In this document: in pieces, positions 1 through 22,689 of the stretch
How positions within the stretch are numbered: position 1 is the stretch's first letter
Layout of the letters: the number at the start of each line of letters is the position of its first letter
Assembly: GCA_929200485.1 (NCBI GenBank)
Contig: CAKMZU010000006.1
Span: forward strand, 2,558-26,071
DNA from: an uncultured Gammaproteobacteria bacterium
GTDB taxonomy: Bacteria; Pseudomonadota; Gammaproteobacteria; Pseudomonadales; DT-91
Direction of reading: 5' to 3'
Length of the DNA stretch: 23,514 nt
Translations under genes and position numbers: made by a program
Notes under the pieces: model-generated
Databases searched by the model: none
What the model saw: only the letters and a program-made list of their open reading frames with translations
What the model was told of the DNA's origin: nothing

Positions 1-3000
1 GGTAATCGGTTTGAGGATTTGGTTGAAGCCAGATCTATTCCTGGATTTCCATCAATGAGTTACCGATACAAAACCCAGCATAAAGATGGGAGTATTCAAT
101 ACTTTTCGCATCAGGGCTTGATTGTTTTGCGTGTTGACCGTTTCGGTAATTCAATAAAATTCTTTTACGAAACGCCAATCAGAGAACTTGTGTCAGCGCG
201 GCTAAATGAAATTGTGGATAATTATGGCAATAGATACCAATTCAATTATGAACCCAACACCATCATTATTGATTATCCAGATGGCCGAGAGCAGCGAATC
301 TATTTTAACAAGCAAGGCGTCATGGAGATTGTTAACCCGCTTCGGCAAAGTTACCATCTAACGTATATATCAAGTGTTGGCAGGGATTTGCTTAGAACGA
401 TTGAATCGCCTGAAGGGTTGATGACCGAGCTTGGGTACGACAGTATTCCGTATAAAAAAGATGAGTCAATAAAACAGTTGCCAGTTGTCATTCATTTCAA
501 ACAATTTGATTTGGCAGATAAAAAAACACACCACGAAGTGAATTATCTTTATAGTAAAGGAAATAATTATACAGGTTACCCTCTGTATTCATTATCAGAT
601 GCATCAGATAGTTTGATTGAAAGCGATAATCAGGCTTATCGCTATTCGGTAGAAGTGTCCCGGGTCAATGATAAGCAGATTCATCATCAGGTATATAAAT
701 ACAATTATCTTCATTTGCCTGTTGAAATACGTACATCAAATGAAGGGAAACCCCATACTAAAGTAACCTATGAGTATGATATTTCTCCGTTTAAATATAG
801 CCGATCAACCAACTACGATAAGCCTGTTCGTGTAACAAAGTCTGTTTGGCATCCATCCAAATCATCTTATGTGCCAAGCGATCGGATCGAAACAACCTTT
901 GATCTTTATGGTAACAAACTGATGGAGCTACAGTCAGTCTATAATCAGGACACAGGTGAATGGAGTAAGCTGAAACAAATAACAAAGAACTATTTTACGG
1001 ATAACTTTAGTCTGATTTCAGAAAAAATAGAAGAAGATTTGTTAAAAGGGCGGGCAATCGCAAAGCATTATTATCTCGATTTATCGGGCAAGAACTTATC
1101 CAGAGAAGAGCAGCGTTTCAAGTTAGATGTGAAGGAAAAAGATTGGATTGACTGGCAGAAAGTCGACTATACCCATGATAACCATGGCCGACAGCGATCG
1201 ATAACAACAAGTTGGTTAATGAACGCAAAGCCGGGCGTCCAGACAATTAACGAAACGAAAGCCTATGAGTTTGATAAGGATTCAGCACAATTGACCTTGA
1301 TTAAGGTCAGTAATGCAGGCCGAGCAATTACACAGATTATGGATACACGTAATGATCGTCTGGTTAAATTTGTCTCCCCTGAAGGTGAAGTTACCCAGTA
1401 TAAATATGATGCGCTCAATCGTGAAATTACTATGATAGACGCTCTGGGTAATCCCATAAAAACAACCTATGAGACCTACTGCCAAGACGGGAAAAATACT
1501 CAGTTGCATCAAAGCCCTCTAGGCGAAAAGCGGAGAACAACGCTTGATGCATCCAATCGGATTACCGAGCATCAAGATCAATACAAAGGACATTGGCGAA
1601 CGCTACTTCGTCAATCGTATAACGCTTTTGGCAAAGTGATAAGCAAGACAAATAAAATAGGGCTGACTATCTCATCAACCTATGACGAGCAGGAACGGCT
1701 TATTCAAGCAATAGATATATGGAAAAATAAGTATGAAATACGTTATGACGATGAGACGTTAACGACAACCATTTCAATGAATGGTCAACGAAACCAGCTG
1801 AAAAGAAAGATTCCCTGGGAGCGAAAAGATATTCACGAGATCTATCCTTTTTTAAATAACGCATATGATAAGCCGGAACAATATGTGGGGACGCATTGGG
1901 TAAAAGATGGCTTCAATAAAACCATAGAGGCTGAGTCTTCTCTGGTAGATTTAACGAATAAAAACAAGTCTGAAACTGTCTTGGCAAGTTACCAGTATGA
2001 TGCCCAAAATAACAGGGTTTTATCAAGGATAGAAACCTATGATGGCATCGTTCTCACGAAAACTTCTGAGTATGATTTATCAAATAAATTATTTACCTGG
2101 AGAAAAAATTATCACACGGCTAACCAACAGAGTACGCATGAAGGTTATCGCTATCATTATGATGCTGATGGATTATTATCCAAGGTTGAATCTCCACCCA
2201 TTAACGGTGCTCATGAGGATATTTTTAACTACGGATACGATAAGAATGGGAGGGAAATCGAACGAACACTCCGAGATGGCAATAAAATATCTTATGAATA
2301 TGATGAGCGTGGATTACTGGTTCAAAGAAGTTGGTGCCGCAATAATAGGCGTTATAGTATTAGGCACCATTTTGATGCAGATGGAAAACTAGTGACACTG
2401 GAAGACAATGATAACCAGTCGTTACACTACCGCTATTCAAATACGGGGCAGCTTATCGAGATGCTCTACCCTGATAATCAATCCTTATCTTTTGAACTGG
2501 ATAAGTATGATCGAGTCATCCATCAAACCGATGCACATGGCATGGCACAACAATTCACCTATCTTCCTGATGATAAAGGTAAATTATCAGGTATTGCCTC
2601 AGGTAACTCTCACATCTGCTTTCATTACGGCAAGGATGACAATGGCTGTCAGGGCCAATTGATTAGTCGGCAGTTTGAAGGTGTAGGGACTGGGCTTACG
2701 CAATCGAATTATCACTACGATGCTTTCAGGCGCCTAAAGCGCTCAATGAGCATTAACCACGCATCGCAAAGAAGTTTTCATGTTGATTATAGCCATAACG
2801 CTTGGGGAGAGATGCATTCACAACGGCAGAAACTAACAACTAAAGATCAAGATGAATGGCTGTTAACGAATTATGAATATGATGGTTTGCGGCGATTGAA
2901 TATGGAAAAGCAAGGTTACTCGAAGGAAGGGAAACCCTTTCAGCATTGGCATAATGCTTTTTTGTATGACGGGAATAATAACATCGTCTCTGAGACTAAA

Positions 3001-4569
3001 TTAGATGTAAATGGGTGCTTGTCTAAGAAAACCTATCATTATAATGCACAGGATCAGTTGGAAAATATAACAATCGACGGTTCCGAGAACCGATTGCCTA
3101 TCATTTATGATGCCAATGGCAGATTAATCAACGATCATTATGGCAATGTTTATTCTTATGATAACGCAGGCTACCTGCTAAGAATTTCCGATAAAAAGAG
3201 GTCAGAAACCTATTTACATTATTTGCCTAATGGATTTTTAGGTCAGAGCTTTCATCAAGGCGCGCATAGTGATTTTTATCCGAACGAATATCAACAGGTG
3301 ACGACACTATACAAAGACAATCAATGGCATAGCTTGGTTCGAACGGATCAGAGTATTGTTGGTAGATCCAGCGATCGTGGTATGGATCAGCTGTTTAAAG
3401 CAAACCAAAGTACTGGTGCAATATTGGCGTTAAAAGAAGCGGGGAATACACGCTTCGATCTGTTGCAGTATGATGGCTATGGAAAGCAAACAGGCTTTTC
3501 GACAGGAGATAAGCGTCCCATTGAAAGTTTTGGCTGGAATCAAGAATTAACGGAAACAAACGTGGGGTTAATCTATTTACGGCATCGATTTTATCACCCT
3601 GATTTTCGACGATTTATTACAAGGGATAGTTTTGATGTCGATAATCGGTACGCTTATGCATCAGGCAATCCCGTGAATACACTGGATCCCACAGGGCATA
3701 ACGAAGCCGTTAATTACAGTGTGGGTAGTGGGTTTGCTGTTTTGGGTGTCGTCGGAGCGATCTTTGCGGTTCCAACAGGCGGTGCGTCCTTGTCGTTATC
3801 CGCTGCAGCTGGCGTTGGCGCAGGGGTGACGACAGCGCTATCGGGTATCTCATTGATGGGATCACAGATGGCGTTGGATGCTGGAAATAAAGTCGCAGCA
3901 AAAGCGCTATCCATTACCAGTATAACTCTGGGTTCATTAGCGATGGCCCAAGGGGTGATCTCCCTTGCGCCCACTATCGGCAATCTGTTAACGCACGCAG
4001 GGGAATATCTCACTACATCAAGCGAGGTCATTAAAGAGTCAGCAGGCGCGGTAAGTACTACCGCTAACGTGACTGGCGAAGAAGAGATAGCGTCATCTGT
4101 CAGACTTGAAGTTGCAGGGACCGCAAACACAGGAACAGGCGCTGCCGCTGCAACATCGGCTGCGACAACAGCAGCCATAGGTGAGGAAATGGCAAGCCCA
4201 GCTGTTGAATTTCTCCATAGTGGTTTAGCTGAACACTCTGTTGGTACCATGATTGAACGACTAGGCGAATCGGGTGAAGGGAAAGTTACGCACTTTACAT
4301 CGATGAATACGAATTTTCATAAGGTGGTTGTGCATCAACAGTCTACATGGCTAGCAAAGGTTAGAGATTTTCTCTTTAAGCGCATGGTAGGTGAAGACTT
4401 TGCTTATTATATGCGTCGAGATGGTGGTGGGGCTAAAATTCTCTACGCAGAAGACGAGCCGAATAAGTTGAAGATGTCTCAAGGCAAAGGATTATTTGAG
4501 TATTTTGGGTTGCCATCAGCGGAGACAATGGAAGGTTCAGCTTATTACAAGGCATCGCAAAGCTTCTGA
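1..4569 (+). CDS. RHS/YD-repeat protein, 5' end outside window, with unrecognised C-terminal domain
   Basis: The frame is open from base 1, so the true start lies left of the window; a TTG at 19 is only the first possible start inside it. At least 1516 codons are visible. From about residue 20 to 1150 the protein is a string of YD-type repeats (YxYDxxGR/L variants such as YEYDERGLL, YHYDAFRRL, YEYDGLRRL and IYDANGRL), which in this family form a hollow beta-cocoon. The RHS-associated core follows at about 1170-1227: GLIYLRHRFYHPDFRRFITRD, then AYASGNPVNTLDPTGH. RHS proteins carry a variable, often toxic, domain after this core. Here it is about 290 residues: a Gly/Ala-rich hydrophobic stretch (about 1233-1330), an Ala/Thr-rich linker, and a soluble tail of about 115 residues containing MRRDGGGAKILYAED. 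I recognise no catalytic motif in the tail. No immunity-like gene follows before the TonB receptor. RHS identity is sure; a toxin role is inferred. Confidence 0.9.
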   Translation, partial: GNRFEDLVEARSIPGFPSMSYRYKTQHKDGSIQYFSHQGLIVLRVDRFGNSIKFFYETPIRELVSARLNEIVDNYGNRYQFNYEPNTIIIDYPDGREQRIYFNKQGVMEIVNPLRQSYHLTYISSVGRDLLRTIESPEGLMTELGYDSIPYKKDESIKQLPVVIHFKQFDLADKKTHHEVNYLYSKGNNYTGYPLYSLSDASDSLIESDNQAYRYSVEVSRVNDKQIHHQVYKYNYLHLPVEIRTSNEGKPHTKVTYEYDISPFKYSRSTNYDKPVRVTKSVWHPSKSSYVPSDRIETTFDLYGNKLMELQSVYNQDTGEWSKLKQITKNYFTDNFSLISEKIEEDLLKGRAIAKHYYLDLSGKNLSREEQRFKLDVKEKDWIDWQKVDYTHDNHGRQRSITTSWLMNAKPGVQTINETKAYEFDKDSAQLTLIKVSNAGRAITQIMDTRNDRLVKFVSPEGEVTQYKYDALNREITMIDALGNPIKTTYETYCQDGKNTQLHQSPLGEKRRTTLDASNRITEHQDQYKGHWRTLLRQSYNAFGKVISKTNKIGLTISSTYDEQERLIQAIDIWKNKYEIRYDDETLTTTISMNGQRNQLKRKIPWERKDIHEIYPFLNNAYDKPEQYVGTHWVKDGFNKTIEAESSLVDLTNKNKSETVLASYQYDAQNNRVLSRIETYDGIVLTKTSEYDLSNKLFTWRKNYHTANQQSTHEGYRYHYDADGLLSKVESPPINGAHEDIFNYGYDKNGREIERTLRDGNKISYEYDERGLLVQRSWCRNNRRYSIRHHFDADGKLVTLEDNDNQSLHYRYSNTGQLIEMLYPDNQSLSFELDKYDRVIHQTDAHGMAQQFTYLPDDKGKLSGIASGNSHICFHYGKDDNGCQGQLISRQFEGVGTGLTQSNYHYDAFRRLKRSMSINHASQRSFHVDYSHNAWGEMHSQRQKLTTKDQDEWLLTNYEYDGLRRLNMEKQGYSKEGKPFQHWHNAFLYDGNNNIVSETKLDVNGCLSKKTYHYNAQDQLENITIDGSENRLPIIYDANGRLINDHYGNVYSYDNAGYLLRISDKKRSETYLHYLPNGFLGQSFHQGAHSDFYPNEYQQVTTLYKDNQWHSLVRTDQSIVGRSSDRGMDQLFKANQSTGAILALKEAGNTRFDLLQYDGYGKQTGFSTGDKRPIESFGWNQELTETNVGLIYLRHRFYHPDFRRFITRDSFDVDNRYAYASGNPVNTLDPTGHNEAVNYSVGSGFAVLGVVGAIFAVPTGGASLSLSAAAGVGAGVTTALSGISLMGSQMALDAGNKVAAKALSITSITLGSLAMAQGVISLAPTIGNLLTHAGEYLTTSSEVIKESAGAVSTTANVTGEEEIASSVRLEVAGTANTGTGAAAATSAATTAAIGEEMASPAVEFLHSGLAEHSVGTMIERLGESGEGKVTHFTSMNTNFHKVVVHQQSTWLAKVRDFLFKRMVGEDFAYYMRRDGGGAKILYAEDEPNKLKMSQGKGLFEYFGLPSAETMEGSAYYKASQSF

Positions 4570-10611: not shown

Positions 10612-11412
10612 TTATTTTCCTCCAAATAGGTATTTATTTTGATTCAATAACTTCTCCTTTACGGGAGGAGGTAGGCGTTTTTTATTTTTTATTAGTTTTT
10701 TGTTTGTGTTTATTGTTGCCATGCAAAGTCTCTCCAGGCTTGTAGGCTTTTCTTCAGGTCCGCCAAGATATTGAATTTTTGCATCAGTGGTCGTGACCTC
10801 TAGTCTGAGAGCAGGTTGCACCGCATCATAGGGTATCTTATAGGCGGGGGTGGATTTACCATTGCTTGAATGTAAGGAGATTTCCTTTTTGTCCATATCA
10901 ATCAGGAGTATATGTTTTTTGCCTGAATTGAAAACTCTCTTAGGTTTGTGAACGCCATGAGAGGCATTCTCTCCGTTAATTGAGAATTTAGAAGAATTTT
11001 TCTGCCAGCATGCGCTGAAATTATTTCTAAGACTCTCAAAATTGGATTGCGAGAAATTGCTGTCAACTACGCCAATTTGATCAAGGAGATAACGACCAAT
11101 AAGGGTGTGAGGCCAGTAAATCATCCAGGCATGAATGCCCGAGCGATAAGATTCTCCCATCCAGACATCATGTTCGAGATCATAACCAGTTCTTCCCCAG
11201 AAGACGGGTTTGATATGCTTGTATTTCTTGTGAGCACGATAGTCTGAGTTATGCGGGCTGAAACCGTTATACTGAGATGACCTATGTGTTTGACATTGAT
11301 TTGATAGTAGCGCTTTGATTATTGGGTTGTCGGTAATAAATTTTTTTCCAGCATAAGTAAGGTTGAATGTAGTTACGATGAGTAACGTTAAAGCAATCAA
11401 ATAAAATTTCAT
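10612..11412 (-). CDS. Secreted protein of unknown function
   Basis: A 266-residue protein when started at the ATG whose complement is 11410-11412. That start gives a clean signal peptide (MKFYLIALTLLIVTTFNLTYA, cleavage before GKK). An in-frame start at 11451 would add 13 residues in front of it and looks wrong. The mature part is soluble, rich in Lys, Asn and Ser, with one central aromatic block (about 68-105: PVFWGRTGYDLEHDVWMGES, then HAWMIYWPHTLIGRYLL). It has few cysteines (about residues 40 and 129, plus one near the C-terminus), compatible with a periplasmic or extracellular fold. I recognise no family. It is separated from trpG by 65 bp and read in the same direction, but nothing links it to tryptophan synthesis. 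No SD is visible. Confidence 0.65.
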   Translation of the reverse strand: MKFYLIALTLLIVTTFNLTYAGKKFITDNPIIKALLSNQCQTHRSSQYNGFSPHNSDYRAHKKYKHIKPVFWGRTGYDLEHDVWMGESYRSGIHAWMIYWPHTLIGRYLLDQIGVVDSNFSQSNFESLRNNFSACWQKNSSKFSINGENASHGVHKPKRVFNSGKKHILLIDMDKKEISLHSSNGKSTPAYKIPYDAVQPALRLEVTTTDAKIQYLGGPEEKPTSLERLCMATINTNKKLIKNKKRLPPPVKEKLLNQNKYLFGGK

Positions 11413-11477
11413 ATAAATTGTCAATAAGGCTGCGTTTAAGCATTCTGACAATGTACATACGGTTTTGTTTTATCTCT

Positions 11478-12140: not shown

Positions 12141-13520
12141 TTACTCAGTCACCATAAATTGATCTAAAACTTTTTTAGTGCCCGCAAATTTCCGAACAAT
12201 CTCTTGATATTCATCTTCTGGGTTTGAATCATAAACATTGCCACCACAGGTTTGTACATAAGCATCGGAGCCTGAGACAAAAATGGTTCGGATAGGAATG
12301 GCAAAGGTGCAATCGCCATTAAATGAAAACGTACCAACGGCACCACCATAAGGACCACGGCCATCGGATTCAAGGTCATCAATGATTTTCATCGCTTCAA
12401 TTTTTGGTGCACCCGATAACGTCCCGGCGGGGAAGTTACTGGCTAAAGCGCTAAACATGTCGTTCTTCTCATCAATAATGCCGACGATTTCGCTGGAGAT
12501 ATGTTGCACATGGCTAAAGCGTTTAATATCCATCAGGCTTCTGACTTTTACGGTACCAAATTGAGCGACTCGACCAATGTCATTACGGTGAAGATCCACA
12601 ATCATATTGTGCTCGGCAATTTCCTTAGGGTCGTTTAAGAGCTTACGCGCTAGTGACAAATCTTCTTTTTGGTCTTTGCCGCGCCCTACAGTACCCGCAA
12701 GAGGGAAGGTTTCCATCTCGCCCTGACGTAGTCGAAATAGGAGTTCAGGGCTTGCGCCTATTAATTTCTGTTGATTAAATTTAAGGTAATACATCTGTGG
12801 CGAAGGATTGACTTCGCGCATCTGTTCATAAATATTGATGGTATCGCCAGTGATAGAAAAGCGTTTTTTAAAACCGACTTCGGTTTGGAAAATCTTGCCG
12901 GCGAGAATGTCATCCTTAACTTTAAGCACAGCCGATTTGTGTTGTGCTTTAGTCATTGTTTCGCCAAGGTTTTTAATTTCAAGTTGATCATTGCCAGGAT
13001 AAGGCGTTTCCATCACCTCGATTACGCGATCCAAACGGTTTTCTCGGTAATGAAAGTAAAAAACTTCGCCCGTCATTTTATCAAGCACTAAACCATCGGT
13101 ATAAAAACCAAACCGGAAGGCGTCGAATAGATCGTTAGTTTGCACATTAAGGGCTGGTTCAAAGTAGTTAATGGCATCGTAGCCCAAGTAACCTGTTAGG
13201 CCTCCAGCATACTGTCTTGAGATGACATTCTGCGGGATAATTTCCTGCAAAAGATAATAAGGGTTGTCGCTTTCGTAGTGTTTACAAATACCTGCGCGAT
13301 CTTCAATGGTCAATGTTTTGCCATTGGCAAATATTTGGTATTCAGGGTCAAAACCAATAATGGTGTGGCGAGCCATATGGCTGTCTTCGCCTAACGATTC
13401 CAGAATAAAGCAATGATCGAAGGTCTTCTCAATTTTTTTGAATAGCTCAAAGAAATCGCAATCATCGCTCACCTTTTGATATTTGGGTTTGCGTGGAAGT
13501 GAAAAGGCCGAGGGTTTCAT
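12141..13520 (-). CDS. trpE: Anthranilate synthase component I
   Basis: A 459-residue chorismate-utilising enzyme that converts chorismate and ammonia to anthranilate. The feedback-site LES element is present (FILESLGEDSH, 38-48). The C-terminal catalytic domain has GASPELLFR (255-263), EHNMIVDLHRNDIGRV (303-318), HVQHISSEI (337-345), NFPAGTLSGAPK (362-373), GPYGGAVG (389-396) and PEDEYQEIVRKF (434-445). Three blocks differ from the usual form: the common AGTRPRG is AGTVGRG (275-281), DLGRND is DLHRND (309-314), and the usual AGxGIVxDS reads TCGGNVYDS (424-432). The ATG overlaps the trpR stop as ATGA, implying translational coupling. The rest of the pathway (trpDCFBA) is not in the window. 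A PabB role is less likely given the trpR linkage and the LES element. Confidence 0.88.
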   Translation of the reverse strand: MKPSAFSLPRKPKYQKVSDDCDFFELFKKIEKTFDHCFILESLGEDSHMARHTIIGFDPEYQIFANGKTLTIEDRAGICKHYESDNPYYLLQEIIPQNVISRQYAGGLTGYLGYDAINYFEPALNVQTNDLFDAFRFGFYTDGLVLDKMTGEVFYFHYRENRLDRVIEVMETPYPGNDQLEIKNLGETMTKAQHKSAVLKVKDDILAGKIFQTEVGFKKRFSITGDTINIYEQMREVNPSPQMYYLKFNQQKLIGASPELLFRLRQGEMETFPLAGTVGRGKDQKEDLSLARKLLNDPKEIAEHNMIVDLHRNDIGRVAQFGTVKVRSLMDIKRFSHVQHISSEIVGIIDEKNDMFSALASNFPAGTLSGAPKIEAMKIIDDLESDGRGPYGGAVGTFSFNGDCTFAIPIRTIFVSGSDAYVQTCGGNVYDSNPEDEYQEIVRKFAGTKKVLDQFMVTE

Positions 13521-13774
13521 GGTAAATCCAACGTCGAAGAAGATTTAAAGGCTTTGAGTGCACGTGCACCACGGGAGACGGTAGCAATAGCGACACCTAA
13601 TTCCTTTGCAATTAAGCGTTGCGGCTCTCCTGCCTCCAGGCGTTTAGCAATCAGTATGCGGTTGTTGAATTCCTGCATTTCTGTTGGCGTCAGCAGAAAC
13701 TCAAGCGCAGATATCAGCTCATCTTCGCTTTTTGCTTTTTCTAAAAAGTCTAATAGGTGTTTTGGTGTACTCAT
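13517..13774 (-). CDS. trpR: Tryptophan repressor TrpR, short form
   Basis: An 85-residue DNA-binding protein of the Trp repressor family. LLTPTEMQEFNNRILIAKRL (27-46) matches the [21 protein letters not shown] block of the E. coli protein. The helix-turn-helix is PQRLIAKELGVAIATVSRGA (51-70), aligned with [20 protein letters not shown]. It is about 20 residues shorter than the E. coli protein, mostly at the N-terminal arm. With bound tryptophan, TrpR represses trp promoters; here it is first in its own operon with trpE and trpG, so it should autoregulate. The stop overlaps the trpE start (TCAT on the plus strand, 13517-13520). No Shine-Dalgarno precedes the ATG, and the promoter lies so close that the message may be leaderless. 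Confidence 0.88.
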   Translation of the reverse strand: MSTPKHLLDFLEKAKSEDELISALEFLLTPTEMQEFNNRILIAKRLEAGEPQRLIAKELGVAIATVSRGARALKAFKSSSTLDLP

Positions 13775-13775
13775 G

Positions 13776-13810
13776 CACTAGTATGGTATAACGTAAATTT
13801 TGAATGTCAA
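13776..13810 (-). promoter_or_regulatory. trpR promoter with candidate TrpR operator
   Basis: On the minus strand a perfect -35 TTGACA (13805-13810) is followed after 16 bp by TACCAT (13783-13788); TATACC at 14-bp spacing is an alternative. ACTAGT (13777-13782) overlaps the expected transcription start. E. coli trp operators are built from CTAG-centred half-sites (GTACTAGTTAACTAGTAC), so this is a plausible TrpR site. Predicted initiation falls within a few bases of the trpR ATG. Confidence 0.5.
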
Positions 13811-13912
13811 CCTTATTCTTTTGGAAGATCCCCGTAACACTAAATCCATTTGGGAGTGAACTTTTGTTGCAAAATAATTCTAATGGATAAGAGGAAAAAG
13901 GGTGGTTTATAG

Positions 13913-14656
13913 ATGAAACTTTTTTCATATATATTTTTATTGGTAACCTTACATACTTCATCATGCTCTTTCGCTGGGCTTGGTTTGCATGATTTATTCA
14001 GGAGAAACAAAAACGTTGATCCTGAGAGCGAACAAATAAAAATAAATAAGAAGGCATGGAAAAAAGATGAAAAGAGGAGTCTGGAAATACTTGATCACTT
14101 TGGATTGAAAGAAATTAATATTAAATCAGGAGTTAAGATTGAAACCGCTCCCGATATCAACGACAAAGAGGTTGAATTCGTATTTTTGCCTATAGATAAA
14201 AAATATGGAAAAGAGAAAGTATTAAGTATTAAGTATTCTATTTCTCTTGATAAAGACCGTAAGTATATTGCTGGCTTAAAACCAAAGCTTGACGATAGGC
14301 GAAATATAATCATCAGCTCTAGATATAGAGAGAAGCCGATTTATGCGCCAGAGGTTCTCGAAAGCCATCTTGGTAAGATAAAACTCTTCCATTGCTTTAT
14401 GCTGAAGCTGTTCGTTAGATCAGGAAAAGAAAAAGATCAATTTTATAACCCTAAAATGAGAGTCTCTGCGAAGTATCTTGATCACTATAACAACTTTATT
14501 CGGTACATTAAAGAGGGGGAACTATATCACCTAGATTATGTTGAAAATACGACTGAAACATACGATATATTCAAAGGTTGTCTTGATAAGCATTTTCCCC
14601 TGTCAAAATTCCCAGCTGATTTTGCCAAAAACAAAACAGAATGTACTACAGAATGA
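13913..14656 (+). CDS. Exported protein of a three-member paralogous family, copy 1
   Basis: A 247-residue protein with a signal peptide (MKLFSYIFLLVTLHTSSCSFA, cleavage near SFA/GLG) and a Lys-rich mature part. I recognise no known family. It shares with its two neighbours the motif W49-x2-D52-x3-S56-x3-L60-x-H62-F63-x-L65-x2-I68. A run of beta-strand-like segments follows (about 85-125), then the amphipathic helix block IKLFHCFML (156-164), and a C-terminal pattern ending in DKHFPLSKF (225-233) that matches copy 2 (EKYYPVSKL). GGTGG seven bases before the ATG is the likely SD. The upstream 130 bp is shared in layout with the other copies and with the divergent trpR promoter. The gene is visibly more A+T-rich than trpE or sdaA. 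A periplasmic or secreted accessory role is likely; nothing more specific can be said. Confidence 0.75.
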   Translation: MKLFSYIFLLVTLHTSSCSFAGLGLHDLFRRNKNVDPESEQIKINKKAWKKDEKRSLEILDHFGLKEINIKSGVKIETAPDINDKEVEFVFLPIDKKYGKEKVLSIKYSISLDKDRKYIAGLKPKLDDRRNIIISSRYREKPIYAPEVLESHLGKIKLFHCFMLKLFVRSGKEKDQFYNPKMRVSAKYLDHYNNFIRYIKEGELYHLDYVENTTETYDIFKGCLDKHFPLSKFPADFAKNKTECTTE

Positions 14657-14695
14657 TTTTTGAAAATTTTTAATATTATAGAACTATGTGAGAGG

Positions 14696-14723
14696 TGGTA
14701 TAACATTTCTTTTGAATGTCAAC
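14696..14723 (-). promoter_or_regulatory. Fossil duplicate of the trpR promoter, without trpR
   Basis: TGGTATAAC (14696-14704), a six-base variable spacer, then TTTGAATGTCAAC (14711-14723) repeat 13784-13811, the promoter region of trpR, with 24/28 identical bases. On the minus strand it keeps TTGACA but has lost the ACTAGT operator-like hexamer, and no trpR sequence follows. A further shared block GAGTGAACTTTT lies 43 bp beyond it in both copies (13854-13865 and 14766-14777). Confidence 0.6.
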
Positions 14724-14823
14724 TTTAATCCAATCGAACGAATATAGCCTTTTATATCTTTAGTTGAGTGAACTTTTTTTTTGGCGGATTCTAAACAAGA
14801 ATAGAACAAAGGCTTTGTAAACA

Positions 14824-15591
14824 ATGAGAAGTTATGTATTTTTATTATTAATTGTAACCGCTCCATTCTCTACCTTAGCTGCTAATGAGGAAGATTATGT
14901 GATAATTGAAAGTCAGTCGGGAAATAACTCATGTTGTCATTTTTTTTCTATTGGTAGTCGCCATAAGAAAAAAACCAAAAACAAAAAATATTTAAAAGGC
15001 GTGAAACAAAATATACAAAATTGGCAATACGATTTTGAAGATACTGGGACATTACTTTCAAATTTTGAATTAACGAGGATTTCATACAAAGGTGAAGTCG
15101 ATGATGAAACTGGGGATATCCGATTTGACGCTGAGTTTACAGGCAGAGAGTATCAGAAAAATACAATGATCGTTGAGTATGGTATTGAGCTCTCTGATGA
15201 TGGTAATAGCATCAAGGATGTTAATGCTAAAGCTACATACCCTAGTAAATTATTAAATTTAACGTGCCCTAAATTTTATCAGTCGGGTGGATTAGGAGGT
15301 AAAAAAGGTAGGGAAAGGCTGAAAAAACTGAGGATTTTCAATTTATTTATCTTGAAGCAATTGTTTAATCAATTAGAGAGAGCGTCTGAAAAAATAAATA
15401 CTCAAAACGACATTGAAAATCTCAATGAGTTCATGGATACTTTTCGAGAGCATCCTCTATTTGAGTCAAAGTACGGAAAATCAATGAAAGAAGATCCAAA
15501 AACAAAGCGTGCGATGGAGGATTTTTTTGAAAAATATTACCCCGTATCAAAACTAAAAATCCTTATTGACGCTAATAAACCAACTAACTAA
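14824..15591 (+). CDS. Exported protein of a three-member paralogous family, copy 2
   Basis: A 255-residue protein with a textbook signal peptide (MRSYVFLLLIVTAPFSTLA, cleavage before ANEED), then a short acidic segment, a CC pair (37-38) and a basic stretch (48-58). Family motif: W67-x2-D70-x3-T74-x3-L78-x-N80-F81-x-L83-x2-I86. The following strands (GEVDDETGDIRFDAEFTG, then MIVEYGIELSDDGNSI) suggest a beta-sandwich or barrel-like core. Helix block LRIFNLFIL (169-177) and the C-terminal EKYYPVSKL (236-244) pair with copy 1. It is the most instructive copy because it is bounded on the left by a trpR-promoter fossil and on the right by an sdaA fossil. AAAGG about 12 bases before the ATG is a weak SD. 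Function unknown. Confidence 0.75.
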   Translation: MRSYVFLLLIVTAPFSTLAANEEDYVIIESQSGNNSCCHFFSIGSRHKKKTKNKKYLKGVKQNIQNWQYDFEDTGTLLSNFELTRISYKGEVDDETGDIRFDAEFTGREYQKNTMIVEYGIELSDDGNSIKDVNAKATYPSKLLNLTCPKFYQSGGLGGKKGRERLKKLRIFNLFILKQLFNQLERASEKINTQNDIENLNEFMDTFREHPLFESKYGKSMKEDPKTKRAMEDFFEKYYPVSKLKILIDANKPTN

Positions 15592-15674
15592 AAACCTCTG
15601 GTTGCCTACTAAAGGATCCATAGTTTTTAGGCTTCTTTGATTAGATTCTCTAGTTTACGGCAAAGGAAGGTTTT

Positions 15675-15935
15675 GTTTATACACAGGCGCGACTTGGGCA
15701 TCTAATCCACTAAGAATGGACTCTCGGTGTTTGGTATGAATATCCTTGCCAGTTTTTTGTGTGTAAGCAATAACTCTAACAGATGTAACAATATGCATGG
15801 GCGCGACTCAATGCTATTCGAGAAGAATTTAGGGCTTAAATAACAGGCATGCGTTGCTCAGGGAAGATTTTTGTACCCGTTCGTCTACAAAGTCACAGGT
15901 AAGGCATTAGATGATGCTATATCGCCAATTTAACA
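15675..15935 (-). pseudogene. Decayed duplicate of the 3' end of sdaA
   Basis: This stretch repeats the end of sdaA (16894-17160) in the same orientation and order. Read on the minus strand, 15683-15751 gives GKDIHTKHRES then SGLDAQVAP, against [11 protein letters not shown] and GGLATQVTP in intact SdaA. 15858-15930 matches the [10 protein letters not shown]...QVQIPC region at nucleotide level (GCATCATCTA shared; GTACAAA shared). The MEHH equivalent has become an in-frame TAG, the middle part is deleted and frameshifted, and the penultimate Cys codon is now Tyr. The match continues weakly past the sdaA stop to a shared TTAGATTC (near 15640 and 16852), so non-coding flank was copied too. It occupies most of the gene-free interval 15592-16049. 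Confidence 0.8.
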
Positions 15936-15936
15936 C

Positions 15937-16049
15937 ATGTTGAATTTATACCCTGTTGCATTTAAAGATTTAATGCAAAAAATCGTTAATAAGGGAACTT
16001 AACTTTTTTAGTTATTCTAAGATAAAACCAGAAAATATTTTTTATTGTT
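15937..16049 (+). promoter_or_regulatory. Upstream region of copy 3, collinear with those of copies 1 and 2
   Basis: TTGAAT (15940-15945) and GGGAACTTAACTTTTT (from about 15993) lie 110 and 57 bp before the copy 3 ATG, the same positions as TTGAAT and GGAGTGAACTTTT before copies 1 and 2. ATTCTAAGATAA (16014-16025) matches ATTCTAATGGATAA before copy 1. No clear -10/-35 pair or SD is seen. Confidence 0.4.
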
Positions 16050-16838
16050 ATGAAATTATTTGAATTGTTATTTGTTACTTTCTCTATCGTATCTATTTCT
16101 TTTGACGTTGTTGCGGGTAAGGGTGATGTAGCTCTAGATCCATACGGCACTCAGCGATGGCAGGATATAAGAGATTTTGATCGCTTTATAGCAGATGATG
16201 AAAGAAGAAGAGAGATAGATAAGAGAAAAAAAGAAGTAGCAAAAAGGATTAAAAAACAACAGCTATCTGAAACCGTATTAAATGAACGGAAATGGAAAGA
16301 GGATAAGGAATGTTCTGTTAAGGTAATGGAACATTATGCCTTGCAATCAATATCAAAATTAAGCGATGAAACGATTGATGGAAAAAAAAACATAGCATTT
16401 TCAGCAGAATTCATAATGCCTGATAATGAAGTAGCGATGAAGGGTGAATATAAACTTTTTTATTGTGAAAAAAGGGGAAAAAAACAGATCCAGAATATTA
16501 CTGGCACTATGAGTTTCGATAACTCAAAAACATATCCTTTGACAAAGAACTTTGATCTTAATCCGGCGATAATAGCAGAGAAACAGAAAGGATTGAAAAT
16601 TTTAAATTTACTTATGTCAATGGTCGCGATAAAAAATGGTAATGAGAAGACGGACAAAAAATTTGACACTACAGAACCGATGTATAATAGGTTTAATACT
16701 CAGTTCGATAAATTAATAGAAAATATGCAAGGCAACCATCTCTTTAAATTACCCAGTTTGAATGAAGATTCACAGCCCGATAAAGATACATTGCTTATGA
16801 TGGAAGTCCTTTTTAGAAGAATATTAGCCCCAGATTAA
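16050..16838 (+). CDS. Exported protein of a three-member paralogous family, copy 3
   Basis: A 262-residue protein with a signal peptide (about 1-23, cleavage near VVA/GKG). It differs from the others by a highly charged helical insert (about 47-75, ERRREIDKRKKEVAKRIKKQ) that could form a coiled coil. Family motif: W82-x2-D85-x3-S89-x3-M93-x-H95-Y96-x-L98-x2-I101, at the same spacing as in copies 1 and 2. Beta-strand-like segments follow (IAFSAEFIM, AMKGEYKLFYCE), then the helix block LKILNLLMS (182-190), then a C-terminal helix that lacks the PLSKF-type ending. No SD is evident before the ATG. It converges with sdaA, 55 bp apart. It is A+T-rich like its paralogues and of unknown function. 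Confidence 0.75.
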   Translation: MKLFELLFVTFSIVSISFDVVAGKGDVALDPYGTQRWQDIRDFDRFIADDERRREIDKRKKEVAKRIKKQQLSETVLNERKWKEDKECSVKVMEHYALQSISKLSDETIDGKKNIAFSAEFIMPDNEVAMKGEYKLFYCEKRGKKQIQNITGTMSFDNSKTYPLTKNFDLNPAIIAEKQKGLKILNLLMSMVAIKNGNEKTDKKFDTTEPMYNRFNTQFDKLIENMQGNHLFKLPSLNEDSQPDKDTLLMMEVLFRRILAPD

Positions 16839-16893
16839 TATACTTACCTTGTTAGATTCGTAGTTCAAAACCCAAACGGAATGTTATAACTGC

Positions 16894-18258
16894 TTATTTG
16901 CACGCAGGTGTCACCTGTGTAGCTAATCCACCAAGAGAAGTTTCTCGGTATTTGGCATTCATATCCTTACCGGTTTCTCGCATGGTAGCGATGACTGCAT
17001 CAAGTGAAACCGTGGCAGGATAGCTGCGATTCAATGCCATTCGTGCGGCATTGACGGCTTTCATCGCTGACATGGCATTACGCTCAATGCAAGGTATTTG
17101 TACCTGCCCACCTACAGGGTCGCAAGTAAGACCTAGATGATGCTCCATGGCAATTTCGGCAGCTTCGGTAATGCATTGAGGTGAGGCGCCTAATAAATCC
17201 GCTAAGCCTGCAGCGGCCATGGCCGAAGAGACACCAACTTCGCCTTGGCAGCCTACTTCCGCGCCTGAGATCGACGCATTGAGTTTAAATAACATTGCAA
17301 TGGCTGAGGCCGTCATCAAAAATCGTTCGCACTTTTCATAGTCCAGAGGCTCAATGAATTGATGATAATAAGACATCACTGCGGGGATAATGCCTGCAGC
17401 GCCATTAGTGGGTGAGGTGACAATTCGCCCACCGGCGGCATTCTCCTCGCTAACGGCAATGGCATAAAGATTAACCCAGTCAACCCACCTGAGAGGGTCT
17501 TGTGTTGATGCAATACAGCTTAAACGCTTAAATAAATCAGGCGCTCGGCGATTTAGTTGAAGTTTTCCAGGTAATGGTGCGGTAGCATGGCAGCCTTTTT
17601 CGATGGCTTGTTGCATAACCTGCCAGATGGATAAAATCTTAAGTCTTACCATCTCAGGTGGTGTTATCTCTAACTCATTGAATCGCATTAGCTCACTAAT
17701 CGTTAAATCGTGTTGTTCACAGAGCCAGAGTAGTGTTTTGGCATTATGAAACTCATAGGGAGAAAAGCATTTTTCCTCGATATTTTCAGAAAATTCCTCT
17801 TCAGTATGAATAAAGCCTCCGCCTATAGAATAATAGGTTTCGGTGCATATGGGTGTTTGGTTTTTGAATGCTATAAAACGCACCCCATTTTCATGCAGAG
17901 GTAATGATTCCTTAATGAGATGAATCATCTGTTCATCAAATTTTATTCGTTGGTTTTTATGTTTGACTAAGAATGATCCTTGATTTTTTATCTCTTCAAG
18001 AAAGTTTGGGATCATTTCAATGTTCACAGTCTCAGGTGATTCCCCTGAAAGCCCTAATAAAATAGCCTTGTCAGTAAAATGACCTATGCCGGTCATGGCT
18101 AATGAGCCATACAGTTCAATTTCAATATGCGTGGTTTGTTTGAGCGCCCCATTTTTTGAAAGTTTTTCAATAAATTCTTTCGCTGCTTTCATGGGGCCTA
18201 CTGTATGAGAACTCGAAGGCCCGATACCAATTTTGAAAATCTCAAAGACAGAAATCAT
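16894..18258 (-). CDS. sdaA: L-serine deaminase (iron-sulfur dependent, single chain)
   Basis: A 454-residue enzyme that converts L-serine to pyruvate and ammonia with a [4Fe-4S] cluster. The N-terminal beta domain opens [20 protein letters not shown], the standard start of this family, so the ATG complementary to 18256-18258 is chosen over an in-frame start at 18339 inside sdaC. The catalytic alpha domain has [13 protein letters not shown] (282-294), [11 protein letters not shown] (332-342), [18 protein letters not shown] (373-390). Cluster ligands are Cys337, Cys379 and Cys390; their spacing (42 and 11) equals that reported for the Legionella pneumophila enzyme. The penultimate residue Cys453 matches the C-terminal cysteine that folds into the active site as fourth ligand there. 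The gene starts 2 bp after the sdaC stop, forming an sdaC-sdaA operon for serine uptake and catabolism. Confidence 0.93.
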
Positions 18259-18260
18259 GA

Positions 18261-19499
18261 TTACACCAATACTTCCCAAACAAGAGAGCTGACCGCAATG
18301 AAACCTAAAGCCAGTAAAAAAGTATGGCGATAAATACACTTGAACGGTTTTAGTTTTTCAATGCGTAAGAAAGCGTAAGCGGGCAGAATAAACAGAACGA
18401 TGGCAGTCAATGGCCCACTAACAACCTGGATCAGTGAGAGAATGCTTGGATTTAAATAAGAGCATATCCAAAGTGTTAGAGTAAAAAAGATAAGCGTAAT
18501 GTTATGGATTTGTTTGTCAGTAAATGTCAGGCCAAATGAGGGTGACTCTTGTTTGATAATGGACTCAAAGCCCTCGGCAGCACCTAGATAATGTCCAAAG
18601 AAAGAAGAGACAATTGCAGTAATGGCTATTAACGGCCCCACAACATTAAGCATGGGTGAATTAAATTGATTCGCCATGTAGGACATCACAGATATATTCT
18701 GCGCTTTGGCTTCATGCAACATCTCAGGCGTTAACGAGAGTATGCAGGAGATGACAAAAAACATAACAAATATCAACAAGATGCTGGATGTAACCCGAAG
18801 AACGTTATCTGCATTTTTATAAGCCTTATCCCCGAACTTTTCATGCTGGTCTTTAGAAAAGCTGCTGATAATAGCTGAGTGGTTAAAAGAGAAAATCATG
18901 ATCGGGATGCAGGTCCAAAGCAGTTTTAAAAAGCTGCTCAGGTCAGCCGATGGGTAGCCCGTTGCCAAGGTGGGCGCTAACTGCCAATGCGGAATAAAGT
19001 AAATCGACACGAAGAACAACGCGGCGATGAGTGGGTAAACGATAGCCGAAGTCACTTTGACGACCTTATCCTGATCCATCAGGATAACGGCAACCATGGA
19101 TAATACTACAATCAGTGACAACAACCATCGAGCAGGTGCATCAAAACCTAATTGGTTAATGATATAGCTTTCAATGGTGTTGGTGGCACCAATGGCATAG
19201 ATTAAGAGTATCGGATAAATCGATAAAAAATATAACCAGGTTAATATTTGACCGCTGGGTTTGCCGAAGTATTCTTCAGCAACATCGGTAATATTCCCAC
19301 CTCGCAGGCTTGATGATAAGACAAAGTGACAGAGCGCTTTGTGTGAAAAATAGGTCATAGGGAAGGCAAGAATGCCTAAAAATATAACACTGAATAAGCC
19401 ATTAATCCCTAGATTAATTGGCAGAAAAAGAATGCCAGCGCCAACAGCAGTTCCGAAGAGACTGAGAGTCCAGGCCGTATTATCCCGTGACCAACGCAT
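18261..19499 (-). CDS. sdaC: Serine transporter of the HAAAP family
   Basis: A 412-residue inner-membrane protein with about eleven hydrophobic segments. The start WTLSLFGTAVGAGILFLPIN is the conserved TM1 of the hydroxy/aromatic amino acid permease family (SdaC, TdcC, YhaO), in which TAVGAG binds substrate. FSFNHSAIISSFSKDQ (about 204-219) is another SdaC-type block. It imports serine with protons. It is translated just ahead of sdaA (2 bp gap), so transporter and deaminase are made together. No SD lies next to the ATG at 19499. A perfect AT-rich stem-loop sits 37 bp upstream. The Lrp-type gene two genes away is a natural candidate regulator, since Lrp controls sdaA in E. coli; here that is inference. 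Confidence 0.88.
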   Translation of the reverse strand: MRWSRDNTAWTLSLFGTAVGAGILFLPINLGINGLFSVIFLGILAFPMTYFSHKALCHFVLSSSLRGGNITDVAEEYFGKPSGQILTWLYFLSIYPILLIYAIGATNTIESYIINQLGFDAPARWLLSLIVVLSMVAVILMDQDKVVKVTSAIVYPLIAALFFVSIYFIPHWQLAPTLATGYPSADLSSFLKLLWTCIPIMIFSFNHSAIISSFSKDQHEKFGDKAYKNADNVLRVTSSILLIFVMFFVISCILSLTPEMLHEAKAQNISVMSYMANQFNSPMLNVVGPLIAITAIVSSFFGHYLGAAEGFESIIKQESPSFGLTFTDKQIHNITLIFFTLTLWICSYLNPSILSLIQVVSGPLTAIVLFILPAYAFLRIEKLKPFKCIYRHTFLLALGFIAVSSLVWEVLV

Positions 19500-21144: not shown

Positions 21145-22689
21145 GTGGCTTACTATTCTCTGATGCGGGTTCTATCCAACGAGTCAAACTGGTCTTGGTT
21201 GTTAGCAGGTTTTGTGCTGTTGCTAACCATTTATCGTGCGCTTGTGCTTTTTACCTTGCCAGGGTTAAGTCTGCACTTTGATGAAGCCCAATATTGGCTT
21301 TGGGCGCAGGATCTTCAGTGGGGGTATTATTCCAAACCACCCATGTTGGCTTTTGTGATTCACTGTTTTACCAGCGTGTTTGGCGATAGTGCCGCCGCGG
21401 TGCGCAGTCCGGCACTTATTTTTTATCCACTAACAACCTGGGTTATTTATCTTACGGCAAAACGTTTGAGTGATAGCACCAAGGTTGCAAGCCTTGCCGG
21501 TTTTTTGTTTATCACTATGCCGGGCGTGTCACTATCCTCAATGCTGATTACCACTGATGTGGTGAAATTTATTTGGTGTAGTGTAAGTTGCTTGTTTTTT
21601 TATCAGGCAGTGCTTAATAATCGATGGCGAGATTGGTTGCTGGTTGGCCTCTTCGCGGGTTTTGGCTTACTGACAAAATACACCATGGGCATCTTTGCTG
21701 TTGCAGCTGGGCTATTTCTCCTGATCGTTCCCAATTTTCGCCATCACCTGATGAATCCGAAGCTGTGGCTAGCGGCAGGGTTGAGTGCCTGCATTTTTCT
21801 GCCAAATATCCTTTGGAATGCCCAACAAGGTTGGCCAAGCTTAAGGCACACTGTAGAGCTTTCAGGTTCGGGTGTTGAGGGTATACACCCGATGATGGTG
21901 CTCACCTTTTGGGGAGAGCAATTTGGTGTGTTTGGTCTGGTGAGTTTTCCGTTATTTATTCTGTTTTTACTTAAAGCCTTTCCGTGGCGGTTAGATTTTG
22001 AATCAGTCCGAAATATTCACAGAGGTTTTCTGTGGTTGTTTTCAGCAACCTTTTTGTTGGTGATTAGTCTGCAAGCGTTGCAAGGGCGTGTCTACGCAAA
22101 TTGGGCAGCGCCAACTTATGCGATGGCCAGTATTGCCGTTGCCTGGCAATTTCTAAAATGGAAGAAAACGCTATTATTGGCGTTAGGGTTAAATCTTGTT
22201 CTCATGTTTGCGATTTATCATAGTGACGCCATCTTATCGATAGCGAATCCTAATGCGAAAAAAGGGCCAGACCTTATGAAAACCTTAAGAGGCTGGGATT
22301 CATTTACTTGTGAGGTTGAGTCAGCGAGGAGTGATTGTGATGATTGCATCTTGCTAACCGATCGTCGTGAAACGGCAGCGCAAGTCTTGTATTTACTTAG
22401 AAATAGCCGTCCTGTGCTTAAATTCTGGAATCCCGATCATAGTCAAAATAACCACTATGAGATGGTATACAGTTTAAAAGCGCCTTCTGATCAGACCTAT
22501 CTGTTTATCGTGGAAGACAAGTTGACTAATAAGCAAAGGCAGGCGTTTGATTCAGTTGAGCCTGTTAGCAACTTAACAAGAGAAGGTAAATACGGACCGA
22601 TTCGGCATTATCAAATTTATAAAGTCATAGGTTTTCGTGGCTATGCGCCTCGATCAGATGGAATGAACACAAAGGGAAAAAAACAATAA
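21145..22689 (+). CDS. ArnT/PMT-type (GT83/GT39-like) membrane glycosyltransferase
   Basis: A 514-residue inner-membrane enzyme that uses a polyprenyl-phosphate sugar as donor. After TM1 comes the family motif LHFDEAQYWLWAQDLQWGYY (44-61) with the Asp-Glu pair (46-47) of the first periplasmic loop, then SKPP (63-66), as in ArnT and related PMT_2 proteins. About ten to twelve membrane segments follow, then a soluble periplasmic C-terminal domain (about 380-500) with three cysteines around 395-407. Likely acceptors are lipid A, a surface glycan or a protein; the neighbouring PAP2 phosphatase favours lipid A or polyprenyl-phosphate chemistry. The start is a GTG at 21145 or the in-frame ATG at 21163; neither has a good SD. 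The phosphatase gene starts 1 bp after its stop, so they form an operon. Confidence 0.8.
   Translation: MAYYSLMRVLSNESNWSWLLAGFVLLLTIYRALVLFTLPGLSLHFDEAQYWLWAQDLQWGYYSKPPMLAFVIHCFTSVFGDSAAAVRSPALIFYPLTTWVIYLTAKRLSDSTKVASLAGFLFITMPGVSLSSMLITTDVVKFIWCSVSCLFFYQAVLNNRWRDWLLVGLFAGFGLLTKYTMGIFAVAAGLFLLIVPNFRHHLMNPKLWLAAGLSACIFLPNILWNAQQGWPSLRHTVELSGSGVEGIHPMMVLTFWGEQFGVFGLVSFPLFILFLLKAFPWRLDFESVRNIHRGFLWLFSATFLLVISLQALQGRVYANWAAPTYAMASIAVAWQFLKWKKTLLLALGLNLVLMFAIYHSDAILSIANPNAKKGPDLMKTLRGWDSFTCEVESARSDCDDCILLTDRRETAAQVLYLLRNSRPVLKFWNPDHSQNNHYEMVYSLKAPSDQTYLFIVEDKLTNKQRQAFDSVEPVSNLTREGKYGPIRHYQIYKVIGFRGYAPRSDGMNTKGKKQ

Follow-up and report, generated by a model that had tools for sequence, protein, structure and literature searches.

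Tandem genes for a lineage-restricted, exported-looking protein family behind sigma-E-type promoters between trpR and sdaA in an uncultured gammaproteobacterium

Three consecutive genes, here called c1, c2 and c3, lie between trpR and sdaA in a 23,514-nucleotide (nt) stretch of DNA from an uncultured Gammaproteobacteria bacterium (Pseudomonadales, DT-91; assembly GCA_929200485.1, contig CAKMZU010000006.1). The whole stretch that was analysed is referred to as the window; it belongs to genome G000 (3.66 Mb, 512 contigs), and its main comparator is G002, a metagenome-assembled genome of the same genus. On sequence evidence, the three proteins are homologous, relics of duplicated neighbouring DNA lie among their genes, the promoter motif in front of each gene is tied to rpoE, and the proteins have diverged fast with their reading frames intact. 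The explanation that is favoured, with some reserve, is that these are lineage-restricted, exported tandem duplicates under their own sigma-E promoters, in a regulon that would have been enlarged with exported orphans, and that they may bind a changing partner. An earlier, sequence-only reading of the window is upheld in part: there is one family with signal-peptide-like starts, which has expanded locally and diverged fast. The sigma-E-type promoter of each gene escaped that reading, as did the fact that the family is one among many signal-peptide-like open reading frames (ORFs) behind the motif in both genomes.

The ORFs of 247, 255 and 262 amino acids (aa) are where the sequence-only reading placed them. 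The first motif that it described is gap-free from W49, W67 and W82 in c1, c2 and c3, its second block begins at residues 156, 169 and 182 (107, 102 and 100 residues past the tryptophan), and the C-terminal tails are FPLSKF in c1 and YPVSKL in c2. That the three form one family is borne out by BLASTP, shuffling and profile-profile comparison, the pair c2-c3 alone being weak. BLASTP gives E values of 7e-6 for c1-c3 and 1e-5 for c1-c2. A fourth member was found in G002, and the six pairs among the four proteins were compared by Smith-Waterman alignment after removal of the first 22 residues, with 1000 shuffles per pair. The real score was never reached in five of the six pairs, and for c2-c3 it was reached by 2 of the 1000 shuffles. 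The profile-profile check that had been proposed, run as c1 and c2 against the G002 member and c3, returned a probability of 95.2 and an E value of 2.5e-8, the latter being the value for that single comparison. By these sequence comparisons, c1, c2, c3 and the G002 member make up one paralogous family. Both regular expressions of the sequence-only reading fail on the G002 member, and the motif as originally written is not a family signature. Only F20, N45, W49, D52, L65, K71, L204 and T216 (c1 numbering) are invariant in all four members.

Each of the three proteins had been credited with a signal peptide. Their starts do look signal-peptide-like, judged from the N-termini by eye and by a crude hydrophobicity rule that flags 9 of the 17 ORFs in the window, some of them membrane proteins and one nested within a different frame. 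The likely signal peptidase sites, again by eye, fall between FA and G in c1, LA and A in c2, VA and G in c3, and FS and G in the G002 member.

The G002 member was recovered by a search with the three-row profile (E 1.9e-15). It is encoded right next to trpR, in the place that c1 occupies, by an ORF of 259 aa that starts with TTG, and it is matched by BLASTP to c1, c2 and c3 at 1e-8, 8e-7 and 2e-4. It is like c1-c3 in locus, promoter motif, size, start type and alignable sequence, and unlike them in that its identity to them is 24.5-26.2% over aligned residues and one copy is seen, in a broken interval. Contig ends fall between trpR and sdaA in G002. Contig C12 stops 54 nt past the family gene (L017:3226-3279) and contig C163 stops 168 nt past sdaA (L018:10980-11147), so the copy number at this locus is hidden. 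These ends may be those of insertion sequences, which they resemble by eye.

A profile search of the order at E 0.01 matched 2 of 390 genomes, G000 and G002 only, and another profile search matched 3 of 115, the third (G071) weakly at E 0.0144. The four other members of the genus or family that were examined (G001 and G003-G005) gave no match up to E 10; the trpR neighbour in G001 is a different exported-looking ORF. Among 5.8 billion proteins, queries with c1, the three-row profile and a four-row profile found c1's own record only. The opinion that the proteins belong to no named family also stood, with no significant match in Pfam, NCBIfam, PHROGs or PDB sequences (best E values of 0.097, 0.019 and 0.052, each in a single member, and 0.049, respectively). 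There was no match in phages by tblastn with the G002 protein, and none in viral contigs with c1. Within the sequences searched, the family is restricted to one lineage. Two sets of candidates were judged to be chance matches: one in plasmids by tblastn with c1 (E 0.6), and those in G008, G024 and G038 when 56 genomes were searched with c3 alone (E 0.125-0.191). A Cys-rich exported-looking orphan of G000 (contig C18, L122:720-1466) scored E 0.0014 and 8.9 bits against the family profile among 21 sequences bearing the promoter motif, the others scoring worse; this is weak and it is not counted as a member.

The local expansion that had been supposed has left relics of the sdaA 3' end and of trpR upstream DNA in the interval (Table 1). 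The sdaA relic, between c2 and c3 (E 2e-30), has stops in all three frames, and the trpR upstream piece is repeated before c2. Together they argue for local duplication. The relic is 67.5% identical to its own sdaA and 58.6% identical to that of G002, the two sdaA genes being 77.9% identical over this stretch. At 34 informative sites it agrees with its own sdaA where G002 differs, against 11 where it agrees with G002 and its own differs (p 8e-4 against equality). On the strength of these sites and identities, the sdaA piece was probably duplicated after G000 and G002 had separated, barring a misleading effect of gene conversion; the dating covers this piece, not the other duplication.

It is clear that the family has diverged fast, as had been claimed. 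Seven neighbouring proteins are 72.5-92.4% identical between G000 and G002 (trpE 92.4, trpR 91.7, shikimate-kinase-like 87.1, sdaC 83.4, sdaA 82.5, Lrp 79.4, and a glycosyltransferase-like ORF at 21145 with 72.5%), whereas family members have 24.5-28.5% of aligned residues in common, alike within and between genomes. By the Nei-Gojobori method, nonsynonymous divergence (dN) is 0.75-0.95 in the six family pairs, compared with 0.056 for trpE, 0.12 for sdaA and 0.11 for sdaC between the two genomes. The family values are some 6-17 times those of sdaA and trpE; synonymous divergence (dS) is large or saturated. When neutral mutation was simulated at K = 0.33, the divergence that was taken from the sdaA relic, 0 of 300 frames per gene remained intact, with about seven stops on average. 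The frames are therefore under selection.

The sequence GAACTT-N14/15-TCTAA is found in front of all four family genes, 28-29 bases from the start codon, with no further match in the window or in contigs C12 and C163. A matrix made from 18 non-family sites ranks c1 (20.7), c3 (19.5) and c2 (17.8) as the top three sites of the window, followed by one at 13.3; the best scores in three shuffled windows were 16.7, 13.8 and 13.1. The motif also lies 61 bases before rpoE in both G000 and G002. There rpoE is followed by an RseA_N gene and, in G002, whose stretch reaches that far, by a MucB_RseB gene. In addition, the motif is 41 bases before a G002 gene with sigma-70 domains, read as rpoH, and in G003 and G004 it is 35 bases before a gene similar by eye to this rpoH-like gene. 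Since it precedes rpoE in both genomes and the rpoH-like gene in G002, the motif is very probably a sigma-E promoter. The motif fits published sigma-E elements. The E. coli sigma-E promoter has a -35 of GGAACTT and a -10 of TCAAA, the meningococcal -10 being TCTAA (PMC2893595); small RNA genes of Salmonella have a -35 of GGAACTTTT and a -10 of GTCAAA (PMC1804206); and the Salmonella sigma-E targets include rpoE and rpoH (PMC4577112).

G000 has 25 exact matches to the pattern and G002 has 16; the reversed pattern is found 16 and 19 times. The bare number of sites therefore says little. Forty of the 41 were analysed together, the remaining G000 rpoE site being read separately. Thirty of the 40 lie clear of any stop-free stretch of 100 codons. 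At 24 of these 30 an ORF of at least 80 aa begins 15-100 nt downstream, and 17 of the 24 ORFs look signal-peptide-like at their start, the four family genes included. Outside the family, 13 of 20 ORF-headed sites have a signal-peptide-like ORF, compared with 12 of 51 ORFs in the control-search loci (binomial p 9e-5). For the reversed pattern, 30 of the 35 sites were analysed and none had a signal-peptide-like ORF. This control is weak and does not serve as the main evidence: with its internal stop codon (TAA) the motif avoids coding frames, while the reversed pattern lacks that codon and sits mostly in genes (30 of 40 motif sites but 2 of 30 reversed sites are outside long frames). G001, G003, G004 and G005 have the exact pattern 5, 4, 5 and 3 times, and none of these 17 matches has a signal-peptide-like ORF; this is a thin control of exact sites only, since 10 of the 17 fall within stop-free stretches of 100 codons, and of the 7 that do not, 3 are followed by an ORF.

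There are 14 non-family exported-looking products behind the motif. Thirteen were scanned (L138 was left out) and 11 of them have no Pfam family, the exceptions being SIMPL (L119) and Aldedh (L156). In its GAACTT -35 and TCTAA-type -10, the motif before rpoE and an rpoH-like gene, and the RseA/RseB genes by rpoE, the system is like the gammaproteobacterial sigma-E (RpoE/AlgU) regulon. It is unlike the usual regulon in that so many motif genes encode signal-peptide-like proteins without a Pfam family. Within the motif-bearing set that was compared, the only between-genome pairs are L119/L138 and L140/L141; counterparts outside that set were not sought. The first pair, 76% identical, are SIMPL (DUF541) proteins with signal-peptide-like starts (L119:761-1456 and L138:718-1413), the motif being 44 and 87 bases upstream. 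The product of L156:1-1467 (G000 contig C251) matches the aldehyde dehydrogenases (PF00171, E 7.5e-75) and has an N-terminus that looks like a signal peptide; this is odd, as the enzyme is usually cytoplasmic, and the exact motif is within the same long open frame as the gene. A DUF4332 protein without a signal peptide is encoded in G002 (L123:1065-1466), with a look-alike in G000 (L142), the motif being 34-35 bases upstream.

Under the favoured explanation, envelope stress would free sigma-E from RseA/RseB, and the freed sigma factor would transcribe c1, c2 and c3, each from its own promoter. The products would leave through Sec, be cut by signal peptidase, and act as binding proteins, not as enzymes, either in the periplasm or on the cell surface. 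Binding is the more likely of the two roles, given the few invariant residues and that no enzyme family was found. The binding partner may be a changing one, such as a host factor, a phage or a rival.

Several results weigh against this explanation. The BLASTP value for c2-c3 is only 0.58, which is not significant alone. The c2 promoter has a spacer one base shorter, and its matrix score is little above the best from a shuffled window. The motif total in G002 is not above that of the reversed pattern (16 against 19). The family dN/dS of 0.31-0.64, from poor alignments, shows no positive selection. Finally, further sigma factors resembling RpoE score below the curated cut-off, two in G000 and three in G002, and one of these could read the motif. 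This last point also speaks for a quite improbable alternative, in which another extracytoplasmic function sigma factor reads the motif, or the motif is a conserved but role-less leftover of duplication, and the family has no link with envelope stress. The three copies of the motif in the window could indeed have been inherited together, but its presence before rpoE in both genomes, before the rpoH-like gene and before unrelated signal-peptide-like ORFs argues against this.

An ordinary periplasmic stress protein under sigma-E, such as a chaperone, an inhibitor or an envelope-repair helper, would also explain the promoters. Its sequence would be loosely constrained, in keeping with the very few invariant residues and with a dN/dS that stays under 1 for every one of the six pairs, duplication would raise its dose, and it would need no outside partner. 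Skp, FkpA and Spy/CpxP are periplasmic proteins controlled by sigma-E or Cpx, and the family is like them in being small and signal-peptide-like with an envelope-stress-type promoter. However, no sequence relation to them was found (Pfam, NCBIfam and PDB sequences gave no match of note), although known envelope chaperones are expected in Pfam or NCBIfam, and it is confined to two genomes. This alternative is considered rather unlikely. Decaying or spurious ORFs drifting without function would account for the low G+C of the family genes (32.7-33.6%, compared with 42.6% in trpE and 43.5% in sdaA) and for the lack of relatives beyond two genomes. This was already disfavoured and is very improbable, as full frames have been kept where simulated neutral mutation leaves none, and the promoter, its distance and the signal-peptide-like starts are kept in all four copies.

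Table 1. Features of the trpR-sdaA interval (window coordinates).
Feature	Position	Strand	Evidence
trpR, left boundary gene	13517..13774	-	ORF, PF01371
trpR upstream piece, source of the repeat ahead of c2	13784..13818	not assigned	
Sigma-E-type promoter of c1, GAACTT-N15-TCTAA, 29 bases to start codon	13858..13883	+	
c1, family member, 247 aa, signal-peptide-like start	13913..14656	+	ORF list, BLASTP, Smith-Waterman
Copy of trpR upstream piece, tandem-duplication mark	14696..14730	not assigned	83% over 35 nt
Sigma-E-type promoter of c2, GAACTT-N14-TCTAA (short spacer), 29 bases to start codon	14770..14794	+	
c2, family member, 255 aa, signal-peptide-like start	14824..15591	+	ORF list, BLASTP, Smith-Waterman
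Decayed copy of sdaA 3' end, tandem-duplication mark	15673..15931	-	68% over 265 aligned columns
Sigma-E-type promoter of c3, GAACTT-N15-TCTAA, 29 bases to start codon	15995..16020	+	
c3, family member, 262 aa, signal-peptide-like start	16050..16838	+	ORF list, BLASTP, Smith-Waterman
sdaA (L-serine dehydratase), right boundary gene	16894..18264	-	82% to G002 copy; start at 18264 chosen by the authors

The name sdaA comes from the sequence-only reading. A minus-strand TTGACA-type promoter-like site is present inside the original trpR upstream piece. A scan of positions 13500-17000 for sigma-70 promoters and terminators gave no more matches than in shuffles, and Rfam gave nothing at gathering scores. 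Elsewhere in the window, a minus-strand exported-looking ORF without a Pfam family (10615-11451) adjoins trpG and has no good sigma-E-type site in front. A large plus-strand ORF at the left edge (19-4569) has YD-like repeats and, by eye, a Rhs-type look.

It is possible, and is proposed here only tentatively, that in this lineage the sigma-E response was diverted from repairing the envelope and became the master switch of a fast-turnover set of exported orphans, which would have arisen by local duplication and very fast divergence and would be used at the cell surface against hosts, phages or rivals. A 2006 PLoS Biology paper reportedly deals with conserved and variable sigma-E functions. No paper on such a sigma-E regulon of exported orphans was found in a narrow search, which cannot show that there is none in print. 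If the promoter is read as proposed, proteins without relatives would be tied to a known, inducible regulator. The common promoter would then be a simple way to list the exported orphans of the lineage, and it predicts when they are made. Whether new exported genes can be brought quickly under envelope-stress regulation could also be tested with it.

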